Shown here: piece after piece, positions 12,059-20,004 of the stretch
How the letters are laid out: each line of letters opens with the position of its first letter
How positions within the stretch are numbered: position 1 is the stretch's first letter
DNA from: a bacterium
Lineage (GTDB): Bacteria; Actinomycetota; Acidimicrobiia; Spongiisociales; Spongiisociaceae
Direction: 5' to 3'
Assembly (NCBI GenBank): GCA_026710435.1
Contig: JAPOQZ010000029.1
Coordinates: 1 to 61,425 of the forward strand
DNA: 61,425 nucleotides
The notes under the pieces: model-generated
What the model was told of the DNA's origin: nothing
The model's input: the letters and a program-made list of their open reading frames with translations, nothing else
The model's database searches: none
Translations under genes and position numbers: made by a program

Positions 12059-12389
12059 ACTGTCCTGGATCCTTGTTTCGGTACCTCTGGAGAGCCGGTG
12101 TTGTGACAGGAGAGATGGTTCTGTCATAGGCCCGTCGCATACTGGTGGATAACCGCAAAGCACCAAGCGGTCCGTGTTTGGGTACCGACCGGGCCGGGCT
12201 GGGATCATGCAGACCGTACGACCCCGGTAGGGGCATGGCGGGACGCGTTTCGGCGCCGAGGAGGCGGCGGCAGGGGGTGGGACCCGCCGGAGGCGACAGG
12301 CCCGGCGTTTTTCGCGTTCTCGGGACTCCGGTGCCTGTGGTCCGACCGTGGTTGAGGAGTCAATCGGCGATTCCGAGAATCGGGACAAA
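12059..12389 (+). repeat. Dispersed repeat family R, full-length copy
   Basis: About 330 bp from ctgtcctggatcc to gaatcgggacaaag. The core includes taaccgcaaagcaccaagcg, gggtaccgaccgggccgggc and gcgggacgcgtttcggcgcc. The ends are short imperfect inverted repeats of the consensus gtgtcccgagtc. Same-strand copies are at 16865, 19680 and 61194, with a reversed divergent copy near 41000. No open frame is conserved between copies, so it is probably non-autonomous. Confidence 0.8.
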
Positions 12390-14047: not shown

Positions 14048-15601
14048 ATGTACACCCAGCACCTCCTCGGCCGTCTGGCCCCGCCGTCTGTGTCCCGCCG
14101 CGTGTCGTGGCCGATCCTCCTTCTGGCCGTGGCGGTTATGGCCACCGCGCCGGCACCCTCACGGGCAGGCGCGCAGGATGCCGGTTTCGCGGATTCGGCG
14201 GATGCGGGGGTTCACCGGCCGGCGGTCGATGCCCTGGCCGGCTGGGGCTACTTCGAGGGAACCGAGTGCGACACCGGGCGGTTCTGTCCCGAGGATCCGA
14301 TTGACCGGTGGGTGATGGCCGTCTGGTTGGTTCGGGCACTCGGCTACACGCCCAGGGACACCGGCGAGTCACGCTTCGACGATGTGTCCGCCGACGAGTG
14401 GTGGTCGCCCTACGCCGAGCGCATAGCCCGGCAGGAGATCACATCCGGATGCGAGGAGGCGCCGTTGAGATACTGTCCCGATCGACCCGTGACGAGGGGA
14501 ATGATGGCAACGTTCCTGGTGCGGGCCCTGAGAATAGAAGAAGCGCCTCCCGCCGGTTTCGTCGACACAGCCGGAGACACCCACGAAGCCGCCATCGACG
14601 CGCTGGCCGCCGCCGGGATCACGTCGGCGTGCAAGACCGAACCGCTCAGCTATTGCCCGAGCAAACCCGTGACCCGCGGCCAGATGGCCACCTTCCTGCA
14701 CCGAGCCATCCGCACATCCGATCGGGCCATCCTCGCAGTCCTCTACCACACGACGGACGGCCCCAACTGGACCAGCAACAAGAACTGGCTGACGCCGGGT
14801 CCATTGGAGGGCTGGGGCGGTGTCACGACCGACGACGACGATCGTGTCACTCACCTGGTCCTGGAAGCCAATGGGCTGGCGGGTCCGATCCCACCCCTGC
14901 TGGCGTATCTCTCCCAACTCGAGTCCTTGAAACTGCCCAAGAACAGCTTGACCGGGCCGATACCTCCCCGACTGAACTCTCTCCGGCAACTCAAGGTGCT
15001 CGACCTCTCCGACAACCTGCTCGACGGCCCCATCCCCTCCGGGCTGACCGAGCTCACCCTGCTGGAGTACCTGGCCCTCGGCGGCAACAAACTGAGCGGA
15101 GCCATCCCATCGGGATTCGGGAACCTTGCCGACCTGGAATTGTTGTCCCTGCGCGACAACAGGCTGACCGGGGCGATACCTGCCGAGGTGGGAACCCTGA
15201 CGTCCCTTACCTGGATGTCCCTCGCCCGGAACGGGTTGGACGGTCCGATACCTCCCGAGTTGGGCAACCTGGCGAACCTCCGGGCCCTGATCCTCTCCTA
15301 CAACCGCTTGTCGGGCTCCATTCCCCCGGAGCTGGGAAGGCTGTCCGACCTGGTCAACCTTTACCTCGATAACAACCACCTCACCGGTGAGATCCCAGAC
15401 CAGCTGGGCAACCTGACCCTTCTCACTCTCCTGGATGTGGCCAACAACTGGCTGGAGGGTCGAATTCCCGCCTCCCTCGGCGACCTTCCCGACCTCAACT
15501 ACGTACGTTTCCACGGCGGGAACCGGTTCGTCGGATGCGTGCCGGCGGGATTGATGGACACCAGCCACGACTTCAGCCTGATGGAACTCCCGTTTTGCTG
15601 A
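14048..15601 (+). CDS. SLH-domain leucine-rich-repeat surface protein
   Basis: 517 residues. Signal peptide at about 1-40 (RVSWPILLLAVAVMATAPAP), then three SLH repeats (about 45-222) with Cys pairs such as GTECDTGRFCPED, SGCEEAPLRYCPD and SACKTEPLSYCPS. An LRR cap follows (LYHTTDGPNWTSNKNWL), then about eleven plant-type LRRs with the pattern LxGxIPxxLGxLxxLxxLxL. It should be anchored to the cell-wall polymer by SLH, with the LRR solenoid outside for binding. It is first in a same-strand run with the two selenoprotein redoxins, and its SLH type (two Cys per repeat) is the same as in the SLH redoxin at 17343. Confidence 0.88.
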   Translation: MYTQHLLGRLAPPSVSRRVSWPILLLAVAVMATAPAPSRAGAQDAGFADSADAGVHRPAVDALAGWGYFEGTECDTGRFCPEDPIDRWVMAVWLVRALGYTPRDTGESRFDDVSADEWWSPYAERIARQEITSGCEEAPLRYCPDRPVTRGMMATFLVRALRIEEAPPAGFVDTAGDTHEAAIDALAAAGITSACKTEPLSYCPSKPVTRGQMATFLHRAIRTSDRAILAVLYHTTDGPNWTSNKNWLTPGPLEGWGGVTTDDDDRVTHLVLEANGLAGPIPPLLAYLSQLESLKLPKNSLTGPIPPRLNSLRQLKVLDLSDNLLDGPIPSGLTELTLLEYLALGGNKLSGAIPSGFGNLADLELLSLRDNRLTGAIPAEVGTLTSLTWMSLARNGLDGPIPPELGNLANLRALILSYNRLSGSIPPELGRLSDLVNLYLDNNHLTGEIPDQLGNLTLLTLLDVANNWLEGRIPASLGDLPDLNYVRFHGGNRFVGCVPAGLMDTSHDFSLMELPFC

Positions 15602-15756: not shown

Positions 15757-16680
15757 GTGAGGCGACGGACACCGGCGCTGGGGAGAATCGAAACAACCCT
15801 CCCCGATCACCGGGCCAACCGGTTCACCCGCAGATGTGCAGGTCTGGCGGTGGCGGCCGCCCTATTGCTCGCTGCCTGCGGTTCCTCCAGCAGCACAACG
15901 GGCACGGACCTTCCCGAGACCACGGCCCCTGCAACCGCCGCAACGGCGCCTGTTTCCTCCACCGAGGCCACGACCGCCGCCCCATCCGCGTCCGTTACTA
16001 CCCTCTCGCAGCTCACCACGGAGACGAGCGCCGTGGCCTCCACATCCGCTCTGGAGGAACCGACCGTTGGAGCCACTTCCTCGACGGTGCCGGACAGCAC
16101 GCCGGCCTCCACAAGCGTGAGTGCGGGGCCCGACAATTCCCCAACCACCACAGTCGCGCCCGAGGAGCCGGCAGGAAACGAGGCCGAACCTACCACTACC
16201 CGGGTGGAGGCCTCGACCACCCAGGCCCCCACAACCACCACCCAGTCAGAGACCGTCGTGGCGATCTCCGACGACGTGCCCGACTACGACATGATCGACG
16301 TGTACACGGGTGACACAGTCAACCTGCGGACGGTGGTGAAGGGGGACAAGCCGCTGCTGTTCTGGTTCTGGTCGCCCTTGTGAGAGACGTGCCGGGCCGA
16401 GGGCCCGGCCTTCGAGCAGTTCGCTCGGAGCAACGCCCACCGGCTCGAGGTGGTAGGTGTCGGCGGGCTGGGCACCTTCGAGGACACCCAGGAGTACGTC
16501 GCCCTCACAGGCGTGACCTTCACCCTGCTCTGGATCGACACCTGGGACATATGGGACCACTACGGCATGCAGAGCACCTCGGACTTCATGCTCCTCGACC
16601 GGTTCGGCAACCGGGTGACCGAAGTCGCCCAGCCCTACGACGAGGCCGTCATCGAGAGCCTGGTGGCAGGCCTGTTCTGA
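15757..16680 (+). CDS. Secreted lipoprotein thioredoxin-like selenoprotein (UxxC)
   Basis: Read through the in-frame TGA at 16381-16383 the gene gives 307 residues. A lipobox LLLAAC has its lipid-modified Cys near residue 41. A long Thr/Ser/Pro linker (about 42-165) follows, then a redoxin domain. The active site reads FWFWSPL-U-ETCRAEGP, where a normal thioredoxin or TlpA protein has CxxC; Sec would be residue 209 and the resolving Cys 212. Both sides of the TGA are one frame and one domain. The downstream half ends YDEAVIESLVAGLF at a second TGA. The paralogue at 17343 has TGA at the identical site. The start (GTG 15757) is uncertain, with no clear ribosome site. Expected role: extracytoplasmic thiol-disulfide or peroxide chemistry. 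Confidence 0.85.
16381..16409 (+). promoter_or_regulatory. UGA-Sec codon with candidate bacterial SECIS hairpin (gene 15757)
   Basis: Directly after the TGA, gccgggcc (16391-16398) pairs perfectly with ggcccggc (16402-16409) around the loop gag. An 8-bp stem with a 3-nt loop starting with G, about 15 nt after UGA, fits the known general form of bacterial SECIS elements. It lies inside the coding sequence as expected for bacteria. Confidence 0.7.
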
Positions 16681-16864
16681 GTCGAGCCCGGCATACCGAC
16701 TCCCCCCGCGAGACCGGCACCAAGCCGACCGAGAGTGACCATGTCGACTAGGAGCGGCCGAGGTCGAGACCACCGGCGGGCTGGTTTGATCGTGGTCGGT
16801 CAACTACGGACCCGGCGATAGAGAACGACTACCCAATAAGGTAAGGGGTGGGGGAACGCTCCCT
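16681..16864. other. Intergenic stretch before repeat family R
   Basis: No gene or clear terminator recognised between the lipoprotein gene and the repeat. Confidence 0.5.
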
Positions 16865-17197
16865 AGTGTGCCGAGTCTTTGCTTCCGTTACGTTTGGGGT
16901 GCCGGTGTTATTGCAGGAGATATGGTTCTGTCACAGGCCCGTCGCATACTGTAGGTAACCGCAAAGCACCAAGCGGTCCGTGTTTGGGTACCGACCGGGC
17001 CGGGCTGGGATCAAGCCGACCGTACGACCCCCGGGCAGGGGTATGGCGGGACGCGTTTCGGCGCCGAGGAGGCGGCGGCAGGGGGTGGGACCCGCCGGAG
17101 GCGACAGGTCCGGCGTTTTTCGCGTTCTCGGGGCGCCCGGGCCGGTGGTCAGGCAGTGGGTAAGGAGTCAATCGGCCAGTTTTGAGAGTCGGGACAC
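16865..17197 (+). repeat. Dispersed repeat family R, full-length copy
   Basis: Starts agtgtgccgagtc and ends gagtcgggacac, imperfect inverted termini. The core is nearly identical to the copy at 12059. It sits directly beside the MITE-like element at 17199, between the two selenoprotein genes. Confidence 0.82.
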
Positions 17198-17198
17198 G

Positions 17199-17303
17199 AG
17201 GAGGGTGTCGAACGATGACGATTGCTGGGGCTTGCCACCCCCCGACCCAGGAGTCATGCCGGCGATCGGCGGGCCGCTGGTGGATTGCTCCGCACCCTCC
17301 TAG
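17199..17303 (+). repeat. MITE-like palindromic element, copy B
   Basis: Begins gaggagggtgtcgaacgatg and ends gcaccctcctag. Same orientation as copies C and D. It lies 39 bp before the SLH redoxin start, so it may sit in or near that gene's promoter. Confidence 0.75.
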
Positions 17304-17342
17304 GATCAGGGTTGGCTCGTCGACGATGGGAGCGTGACCGTC

Positions 17343-18467
17343 ATGGCAACATCCGGCAGTTTCTTCACTGTTCGACGGGGACGGCGCGGGCGCCGGTGGG
17401 CGGCTCTCGCAGCCGTGGCGCTGGTGACCGCTCTAATCGTTCCCGTCCCCGCCGGTGCCGAGTCCGACTTCACCGACGTGGAGGGCACCACCCACGCGGA
17501 GGCCATCGACGCCCTCGCCGCCCTCGGGGTCCTGGACCGCACCGGATGCGGGGAGGGCATGTTCTGCCCGGACGAGCCCGTCAAGCGATGGGTCATGGCC
17601 GTATGGCTGATCCGGGTTCTCGGCGGCGACATGACCTCGGACGGCACCTCCCGTTTCGACGACGTCGACGCGTCCGAATGGTGGTCGCCGCTCGCCGAGC
17701 AACTCGCCATCCGCGAGATAACGGCGGGATGCAAGACCGGCCCGCTGCGCTACTGCCCCCAGGCCTCGGTGACGAGAGGCCAGATGGCGACCTTCCTCGT
17801 GAGGGCCTTCGATCTCCCGACTGCCGCGGCGGCCGGATTCGTCGACACCGCCGGCAACAGGCACGCCGCCAACATCGACAACCTGGCTGCCGCCGGGATC
17901 ACGTCCGGGTGCAAAGCGGACCCGCTCAGCTACTGCCCCGATGCTCCGGTGAGGAGAGGCCAGATGGCCAGGTTCCTTCACACGGCGCTCCTCAAGCAGA
18001 AGGACGAGGAGATGACCCCGGAACCGGTGGAGATCAGCGACGACGTGCCCGATGTGGAGCTGACCGACATCAGCACCGGCGAGACGGTCAACCTGCGTTC
18101 GCTGATCCCGGGCGACCGGGCGGTGCTCCTGTGGTTCTGGGCCGACTGGTGACCCATCTGCCGGGGGCACGCCCCCAAAGTCGAGCAGTTCGCTCGAGAT
18201 AACGCAGACAGGGTCAAAGTGATAGGCATCAACCCGGCCGGTCTCAGGGGCCGCATCGACAGGGCACGACCCTTCGTGAACGGTTTCGGGCTGACGTTCG
18301 ACAACCTGCTGGACGGAACCGACGGTGTCTACAGACACTACGGCCGCCCCTACAACTCCCATTACTGGCTGCTCGACCGCAACGGTGACCGCGTGGGCTC
18401 CACCACATCCAGCTTCTCGGCCGCCAGGATCGAAAGGGCGCTCGACAACCTCGAGCAAGGCGGGTAG
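17343..18467 (+). CDS. SLH-anchored thioredoxin-like selenoprotein (UxxC)
   Basis: Reading through the in-frame TGA at 18150-18152 gives 374 residues. Signal peptide at about 1-39 (RRWAALAAVALVTALIVPVP), then three SLH repeats (about 40-215) with Cys pairs (GCGEGMFCPD, GCKTGPLRYCPQ, GCKADPLSYCPD), then a redoxin domain from about 228. The active site is LLWFWADW-U-PICRGHAP, so Sec is residue 270 and the partner Cys 273. The frame continues to a TAG at 18465 with typical redoxin sequence (DRVKVIGINPAGL, YWLLDRNGDRVGS). The domain aligns along its length with the gene at 15757 (ISDDVPD at its start, VEQFARDNADRVKVIG after the active site). ATG 17343 was chosen because gggag lies about 10 bases upstream. 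The protein should sit in the wall layer beside the SLH surface proteins. Confidence 0.87.
18150..18176 (+). promoter_or_regulatory. UGA-Sec codon with candidate SECIS hairpin (gene 17343)
   Basis: After TGA, ggggg (18163-18167) pairs with ccccc (18172-18176) around cacg. Position and form parallel the hairpin after the other Sec codon. The loop lacks a G in its first two bases, so the match to the usual bacterial consensus is weaker than in gene 15757. Confidence 0.55.
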
Positions 18468-19679: not shown

Positions 19680-20004
19680 GTGTCCCGAGTCGCTGTTTCG
19701 GTTACGTTTGGAGTGCCGGTGTCGTGACAGGAGGGAGCTCTTGTCATAGGCCCGTCGCATACTGGTGGGTAACCGCAAAGCACCAAGCGGTCCGTGTTTG
19801 GGTACCGACCGGGCCGGGCTGGGATCAGCCGACCGCAAGACCCCGCTAGGGGATGGCGGGACGCGTTTCGGCGCCGAGGAGGCGGCGGCCGGGGGTGGGT
19901 TCCCGCTAGAGGCGACCCGCACAGCGGTTTTCGCGGTCTTGATGCGACGGCCGGTGCGGTCGGGTGGTTCGGGAAACTTCGGCGGATCCCCGAATCAGGA
20001 CACT
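19680..20004 (+). repeat. Dispersed repeat family R, full-length copy
   Basis: Runs from gtgtcccgagtcgc to gaatcaggacac, about 325 bp with inverted ends. The core matches copies at 12059 and 16865. The surrounding 19324-19679 and 20005-20373 hold no recognised gene. Confidence 0.82.

Follow-up and report, generated by a model that had tools for sequence, protein, structure and literature searches.

Redoxins with selenocysteine (Sec) are already described in bacteria. Table 1 of PMC13188914 includes a peroxiredoxin-like thiol:disulfide oxidoreductase (PF00578), a Redoxin family protein (PF08534) and a thiol-disulfide isomerase-like protein (cd02966), all with a UxxC motif. The model of the bacterial Sec insertion sequence (bSECIS) in that paper describes a hairpin with a loop of 3-9 nt, a stem of 4-16 bp, a G in the first two loop positions, a distance of 16-37 nt from UGA to the loop and a minimum free energy (MFE) of -7.5 kcal/mol or lower (PMC13188914). 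In E. coli, the 17-nt SECIS stem-loop lies 11 nt from the UGA (PMC8659212). As for redoxins outside the cytoplasm, Etrx1 and Etrx2 are surface thioredoxin lipoproteins that are fed by CcdA and reduce MsrAB2 (PMC3914529), and the extracellular Etrx3 of Rhodococcus equi is required for hypochlorite resistance (PMC7063783). Here, two neighbouring genes at positions 15757-18467 of contig JAPOQZ010000029.1 (assembly GCA_026710435.1, Acidimicrobiia) are compared with these systems; "the window" means the whole 61,425-nt stretch that was analysed. An earlier note on this DNA took the genes for probable surface selenoproteins. The present analysis supports this reading, within two limits: SLH repeats and a lipobox are the only grounds for predicting a surface location, and Sec redoxins are already catalogued. 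It is very probable that Sec is inserted at both UGAs and that the products have a thiol-disulfide role in the cell envelope.

UGA at the catalytic position of two redoxins

Gene 1 (15757-16680, plus strand) encodes a predicted lipoprotein of 307 aa when its internal TGA is read through. Its GTG start codon at 15757 is uncertain, since the frame is open further upstream. The TGA, a predicted Sec codon, lies at 16381-16383 (plus strand; residue 209, U-E-T-C), and the read-through frame, ...LLFWFWSPL-U-ETCRAEGPAFEQFAR..., has 98 more open codons before a TGA at 16678-16680. Gene 2 (17334-18467, plus strand) encodes SLH repeats and a redoxin domain in 377 aa. Its predicted Sec codon lies at 18150-18152 (plus strand; residue 273, U-P-I-C), and the frame, ...VLLWFWADW-U-PICRGHAPKVEQFAR..., continues for 104 open codons up to a TAG at 18465-18467. 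Both TGAs thus stand at the first position of CxxC, the catalytic position of an AhpC/TSA (TlpA/DsbE-like) redoxin domain, and redoxin sequence continues behind them: the Pfam AhpC-TSA match (PF00578, cut-off 26 bits) spans the TGA residue in gene 1 (30.0 bits) and in gene 2 (45.7 bits).

The genome has four close paralogues, the pair and two more, and every one has TGA at the same column. The Sec paralogue on contig C99 belongs to this family, and a fifth, more distant, lipoprotein-like TGA redoxin is found on contig C20 (WAEWUPSC). A hidden Markov model search covered 44 fetched sources, most of them picked because they had a match, and gave 47 matches of at least 35 bits. In 45 of them TGA occupies precisely the first position of [UC]xxC; the other two have Cys. 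Of the 395 genomes searched at the class level, 80 have a match at E<=1e-15, for a total of 113 rows. A single TGA is present in 94 of these rows and no stop in 19; TAA and TAG occur in none. A further 40 regions contained 33 genes with TGA, in each case at UxxC, and 13 with Cys. The rows fetched and checked were 66 of the 94 with TGA and 15 of the 19 without a stop, and in all 66 fetched TGA genes the TGA stands at UxxC. Matches below 35 bits (44-source search) or below 50 bits (40 further regions) were dropped before counting, and both fetched-region counts split frames at TAA and TAG and hence are blind to these stops, which the 113-row count could show. Because no row has TAA or TAG and every fetched TGA is at UxxC, the position of the TGA is not due to chance. 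The earlier note had argued the same from the two genes, which two chance mutations would hardly explain. Relatives with other stops or without the downstream domain, which would have spoken against it, did not appear; the fetched genes retain the domain.

A protein database search bears on the possibility that the TGA is a true stop, so that the truncated SLH and lipoprotein forms are functional and the downstream redoxin half is the relic of a pseudogene pair. Of 17 homologues found, 16 end one residue before the Sec column, as a true stop would have it, and 15 of these 16 have a precomputed SLH domain. They were seen as protein records, and their stop is presumed to be TGA. With the sequence ending there, their redox half is invisible to annotation. 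However, this half is conserved at the protein level in the four paralogues and the 66 fetched Sec genes, with a third-position excess; TAA and TAG are absent from the class-level rows, and the TGA falls on the catalytic column in every fetched gene. For these reasons the pseudogene pair was rejected, and a true stop is highly improbable.

The 17th homologue, P0005, has the SLH form and is full length with Cys at the column. It shares 79% identity over 331 aa with the C99 Sec paralogue, and is thus the Cys counterpart for which the earlier note had proposed to search. The column also bears on whether UGA is read as a standard amino acid, by a change of code to Trp or Gly or by programmed read-through. 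The frame would be open either way, but homologues without TGA carry Cys, never Trp or Gly (P0005 and 15/15 fetched), gene 1 itself terminates at another TGA, a tRNA-Sec with anticodon TCA, SelA and SelB are encoded, and the second of the two hairpins described below is present in Sec genes and missing in Cys genes. A code change was rejected on these grounds, and reading as a standard amino acid is barely credible.

The binned genome to which the window belongs, as contig C216, has 4.9 Mb (completeness 95.3%, contamination 7.6%), and all four of selA, selB, selC and selD, for which a scan had been suggested, are found there. The tRNA-Sec (73.7 bits, anticodon TCA, read as UCA) is followed by a tRNA-Ser of 47.6 bits as the next match. 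The selA (427.6 bits) and selB (345 bits) genes exceed their NCBIfam cut-offs and overlap on contig C124. The selD match (374.9 bits; L034, G000:C88:2731-3657) has its own in-frame TGA within GGGUACK, so that SelD itself is a predicted selenoprotein. In the set of relatives, selB is above cut-off in 83 of 99 genomes and in 19 of the 20 genomes with a close Sec redoxin, own genome included; the one without is G013. tRNA-Sec, SelA, SelB and SelD would together decode the two UGAs as Sec.

Two hairpins behind the UGA

The earlier note had pointed to a GC-rich hairpin directly after each TGA. Such a hairpin is present in both genes, but the better conserved element is a second hairpin behind it, which the note did not mention. 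In gene 1, hairpin 1, a predicted spacer hairpin (16391-16409, plus strand; 8 bp, loop GAG, MFE -17.8 for 21 nt), is followed by hairpin 2, the predicted bSECIS (16412-16428, plus strand; 6 bp, loop AGUUC, 34 nt from UGA). In gene 2, the corresponding elements are at 18163-18176 (plus strand; 5 bp, MFE -10.2 for 21 nt) and 18181-18197 (plus strand; 6 bp, loop AGUUC, 34 nt from UGA). A bSECIS-like element, which the note had suggested looking for in the GC-rich hairpins, thus exists in both genes, and hairpin 2, not hairpin 1, fits the published model.

Conservation of hairpin 2 was followed in the 66 Sec genes, a set from which 12 TGA matches below 80 bits with the hairpin at another place, 11 of family C plus L106, are left out. 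The stem and loop agree with the bSECIS model: the loop has 5 nt, and the stem has six pairs in 60 genes and five in the other six. A G stands within the first two loop positions in 66/66, the loop reads [AG]GUUN with GUU invariant in 66/66, and in the alignment of these genes (A4), which has no gaps, the loop lies 34 nt from the UGA. The MFE is -8.4 and -8.8 kcal/mol in the two window genes and -7.5 kcal/mol or lower in 60/66. Furthermore, hairpin 2 is more stable than synonymous recoding allows in 33 of 33 close genes, its stem shows compensatory changes, and it is missing in all 15 Cys homologues examined. Selection therefore acts on hairpin 2 at the RNA level, and a chance hairpin was rejected. 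This 17-nt hairpin with its GUU loop, 34 nt after the UGA, is predicted to be the bSECIS to which SelB binds.

Searches with general and specific models gave the following. Rfam had no match at gathering score on the window. An RNA model (R1) run over the own genome ranks the four redoxins at the top (54.7-64.9 bits), all of which are in its training set. Next come a match on C141 (24.7 bits, E 2e-4) with TAA/TAG stops near on both sides in frame, two on C210 (21 bits each) that are repeat copies, and, weakly, the C20 redoxin (19.7 bits, E 0.007). The motif GAGCRGTTNGCTC occurs 11 times in the genome; four occurrences have a TGA 30 nt upstream and are the four redoxins, and seven have none. 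The reversed control pattern occurs five times.

Another reading keeps the selenoproteins but takes hairpin 1 for the SECIS and gives hairpin 2 an accessory or overlapping role. Hairpin 1 is nearer to the UGA and its stability exceeds that of synonymous recoding (mean Z -1.78 and -2.13), and the redoxins of family C use just one hairpin close to the UGA, its AGUUG loop 16 nt away. On the other hand, hairpin 1 varies in register and loop, and in gene 2 its loop starts with C-A and has no G in the first two places; hairpin 2 has the invariant GUU loop in 66/66 and fits the published model in both window genes. In a fixed register, the pair counts of hairpin 1 are weak: the covariation score of the whole structure is reached by 29 of 500 shuffles and its two-sided pairs by 315 of 500. 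Because of the varying register and loop and the gene 2 loop without G, hairpin 1 as the sole SECIS was set aside, and its acting as the SECIS beside an accessory hairpin 2 is unlikely.

Some observations weigh against the assignment of hairpin 2 and of its neighbour. An inner-stem pair of hairpin 2 is broken in L183 and an outer pair in five other genes, and six of the 66 genes have a hairpin 2 less stable than -7.5 kcal/mol. Its two-sided pairs are reached by 12 of 500 shuffles and its pair types by all 500, in a test in which related sequences may exceed shuffles even without structure. A control stretch (+61) is significant in 7 of 33 genes. The majority of the Cys homologues lie further away than the Sec genes do; three (L158-L160) score within the range of the f7 Sec genes. 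Hairpin 1 by itself is significant in only 12/33 and 22/33 genes, and its register shifts; when a single register is imposed, 59.8% of cells are paired.

Hairpin 2 begins 28 nt past the UGA, and the variable GC-rich hairpin 1 between them may serve to absorb the added distance. With hairpin 1 folded, the unpaired path would have a median near 9 nt, with 0-18 exterior nucleotides in the 66 Sec genes and 2-16 in the 15 Cys genes. Since this estimate spreads widely, the folded spacer is offered as a hypothesis only. In its widest form, to which we give somewhat less than an even chance, a whole class of actinobacteria would keep a surface selenoproteome of modular Sec redoxins on lipid anchors, SLH or RCC1-like repeats. 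These would be decoded by a two-hairpin, folded-spacer SECIS in which hairpin 1 collapses the gap, so that the GUU-loop hairpin 34 nt off reaches SelB as if about 10 nt from the UGA; second-type Sec redoxins (see below) would reach the same geometry through one hairpin starting about 10 nt after the UGA.

Predicted anchors, fold and possible electron partners

The product of gene 1 has a lipobox-like motif (LLAAC, Cys codon at 15877-15879, plus strand) and a long Ser/Thr/Pro-rich linker, both read by eye. The earlier call of a lipoprotein agrees with this motif, from which the surface placement is a prediction. In gene 2, the SLH region covers approximately 17460-18000 (plus strand). Pfam SLH (PF00395) scores 36.8 bits against a gathering score of 20.8; the three repeats named in the earlier note are visible by eye, but Pfam calls one, and anchoring to the wall is predicted. 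When the anchors of the 66 Sec genes were classified by regular expression, 11 had SLH, one RCC1-like repeats with SLH, one RCC1-like repeats, 39 a lipobox-like motif, and 14 were assigned none, several of which look lipoprotein-like by eye. The fusions to RCC1-like CWG repeats, named by eye, are L092 (G001:C83) and L038 (G000:C218), and they indicate that one Sec redoxin domain is combined with several kinds of anchor. The products of gene 1 and gene 2 and P0005 stay below the cut-off of every NCBIfam model; WAxxUGC_long (NF041054) gives gene 2 21.7 bits against a curated cut-off of 300. A DNA scan of named genomes found one locus, in an Acidimicrobiia metagenome-assembled genome, similar in the SLH part only.

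The AlphaFold2 model of the gene 2 product has a mean predicted local distance difference test score of 66.6, with the redoxin part mostly above 80. Foldseek assigns it a thioredoxin fold (TMt 0.80 and 0.84 to 1lu4 and 3ios). M. tuberculosis DsbE and DsbF rank first, followed by ResA, and pneumococcal Etrx1 (4hqs) is at rank 18; in the list of 50 fold matches, ResA is the commonest entry. DsbE and DsbF are also the top matches by PDB sequence. The genome encodes one CcdA/DsbD-type protein (DsbD_TM, 53.8 bits, contig C123) and one MsrB-family match (contig C162, a short frame of 169 aa). From the fold matches and the parallels in Etrx and CcdA, the pair is read as Sec versions of extracytoplasmic reductases.

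Most likely, then, these are Etrx/ResA-like extracytoplasmic thiol-disulfide reductases, perhaps fed by the one CcdA/DsbD-type protein. The lipobox would keep the gene 1 product at the membrane and the SLH repeats would keep the gene 2 product further out in the envelope, so that the two are likely surface selenoproteins, one predicted to be lipid-anchored and one wall-anchored, that would reduce extracellular disulfides. By its fold and motif, each domain would be a reductase of the ResA/DsbE/Etrx type, with Sec as the nucleophile and Cys as the resolving residue, acting on disulfides or sulfenic acids at the cell surface. Electrons may pass from cytoplasmic thioredoxin to the CcdA/DsbD-type protein, the lipoprotein and perhaps the wall-anchored partner, the weakest step of this scheme. 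We infer the presence of Sec in the protein, its surface location and its substrate from sequence, and likewise the partner and direction of electron flow.

The reducing direction, taken separately, is favoured with some reserve. The same selenoproteins could act as peroxidases (AhpC/TSA) or as disulfide-forming oxidants (DsbA/DsbF-like), with the decoding, bSECIS and anchoring steps left as they are. AhpC-TSA is the best Pfam family, DsbF, whose name marks it as a protein that forms disulfide bonds, is among the closest solved structures, and no reducing partner was identified beside the pair. However, both proteins have the thioredoxin/TlpA-type motif WxxUxxC and lack the peroxiredoxin motif PxxxTxxU (as given in PMC13188914), ResA prevails among the listed fold matches, and a CcdA-type carrier is encoded. 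The peroxidase or oxidant role is a possible but less probable one.

Further points against Sec insertion and a reducing role come from the genome and the model. The selA/selB, selC and selD genes, the CcdA-type gene and the MsrB-family match are all on contigs other than that of the pair, in a bin with the contamination given above. G013 has a TGA redoxin, yet no selB match at E<=1e-40. The gene 2 model was built on 19 alignment rows, and no evident electron partner was seen among the Pfam-scanned neighbours. The neighbourhood analysis covered open reading frames (ORFs) from ten fetched stretches and from other loci; 20 proteins were scanned with Pfam, 14 of them flanking the close family (window, L148 and L149). 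These 14 are SLH/leucine-rich-repeat (LRR), fn3, glyoxalase-like, luciferase-like, NAD(P)H-hydrate dehydratase, dehydrogenase, Schlafen-like/RecG-like or DUF4349 proteins, or match nothing.

G006 and G001 likewise have a lipoprotein/SLH pair of adjacent genes. In the congener G001, SLH/LRR and NAD(P)H-hydrate dehydratase genes lie near it as in the window, where an SLH and LRR protein is encoded at 14048-15601 (plus strand; context only). In two genera, ccmE, ccmF and a CcmG-like AhpC/TSA protein are encoded within about 6 kb of the second-type Sec redoxin (WAEWUPxCRRELP, lipoprotein-like), seen at L155:9947-10690 (G000:C20) and in L154 (G030:C1); this hints that it takes part in the maturation of cytochrome c. 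Around the pair, the window has three copies of a dispersed direct repeat (about 150-290 nt; 12076-12368, 16883-17176 and 19742-19899), the second of which sits between gene 1 and gene 2. On the minus strand of 26905-54388, there are several long ORFs (about 690-770 aa), most with an SLH-like match to the gene 2 product, perhaps an envelope-protein cluster.

Comparison with known systems

The catalytic unit of the pair is already known, since Table 1 of PMC13188914 has Sec redoxins of these domain families; they share the domain family and the UxxC position of Sec with the pair. The words S-layer, SLH, surface, cell wall, lipoprotein, hairpin and RCC1 are absent from the main text of that paper. 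Searches of the open-licence literature listed neither a selenoprotein with an SLH or lipobox anchor nor a bSECIS made of two hairpins. Thus, Sec redoxins are known, and SLH anchoring and the two-hairpin signal are without a description found in that literature. A 2017 study of sponge symbionts reported SelA and SelB in most symbiont bins and their lack in most related references; its main text never uses the word selenoprotein (PMC5649159). Sec redoxin families such as this one are candidates, by a speculative link, for what SelA and SelB serve in symbionts.

Regarding the signal, hairpin 2 resembles the bSECIS model in PMC13188914 in its 5-nt loop, 6-bp stem, second-position G followed by U and 34-nt spacer. 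It differs in that another hairpin, hairpin 1, occupies the spacer and that the loop is [AG]GUUN in 66/66. The contrast between Sec genes, which keep the hairpin, and Cys genes, which lack it, opens the rules by which SelB recognises its target outside E. coli to direct testing. As for the proteins, the matched chains of M. tuberculosis DsbE (MPT53) and DsbF are single-domain, with 134-150 residues, unlike the pair. Their nucleophile is Cys, not Sec. The closer parallel is Etrx1/Etrx2 as described in PMC3914529, with which the pair shares an extracytoplasmic TlpA/ResA fold, two paralogues, a predicted lipoprotein and a CcdA-type protein in the genome, whereas here Sec is predicted, one member would be SLH-anchored, and the CcdA-type gene is on another contig.

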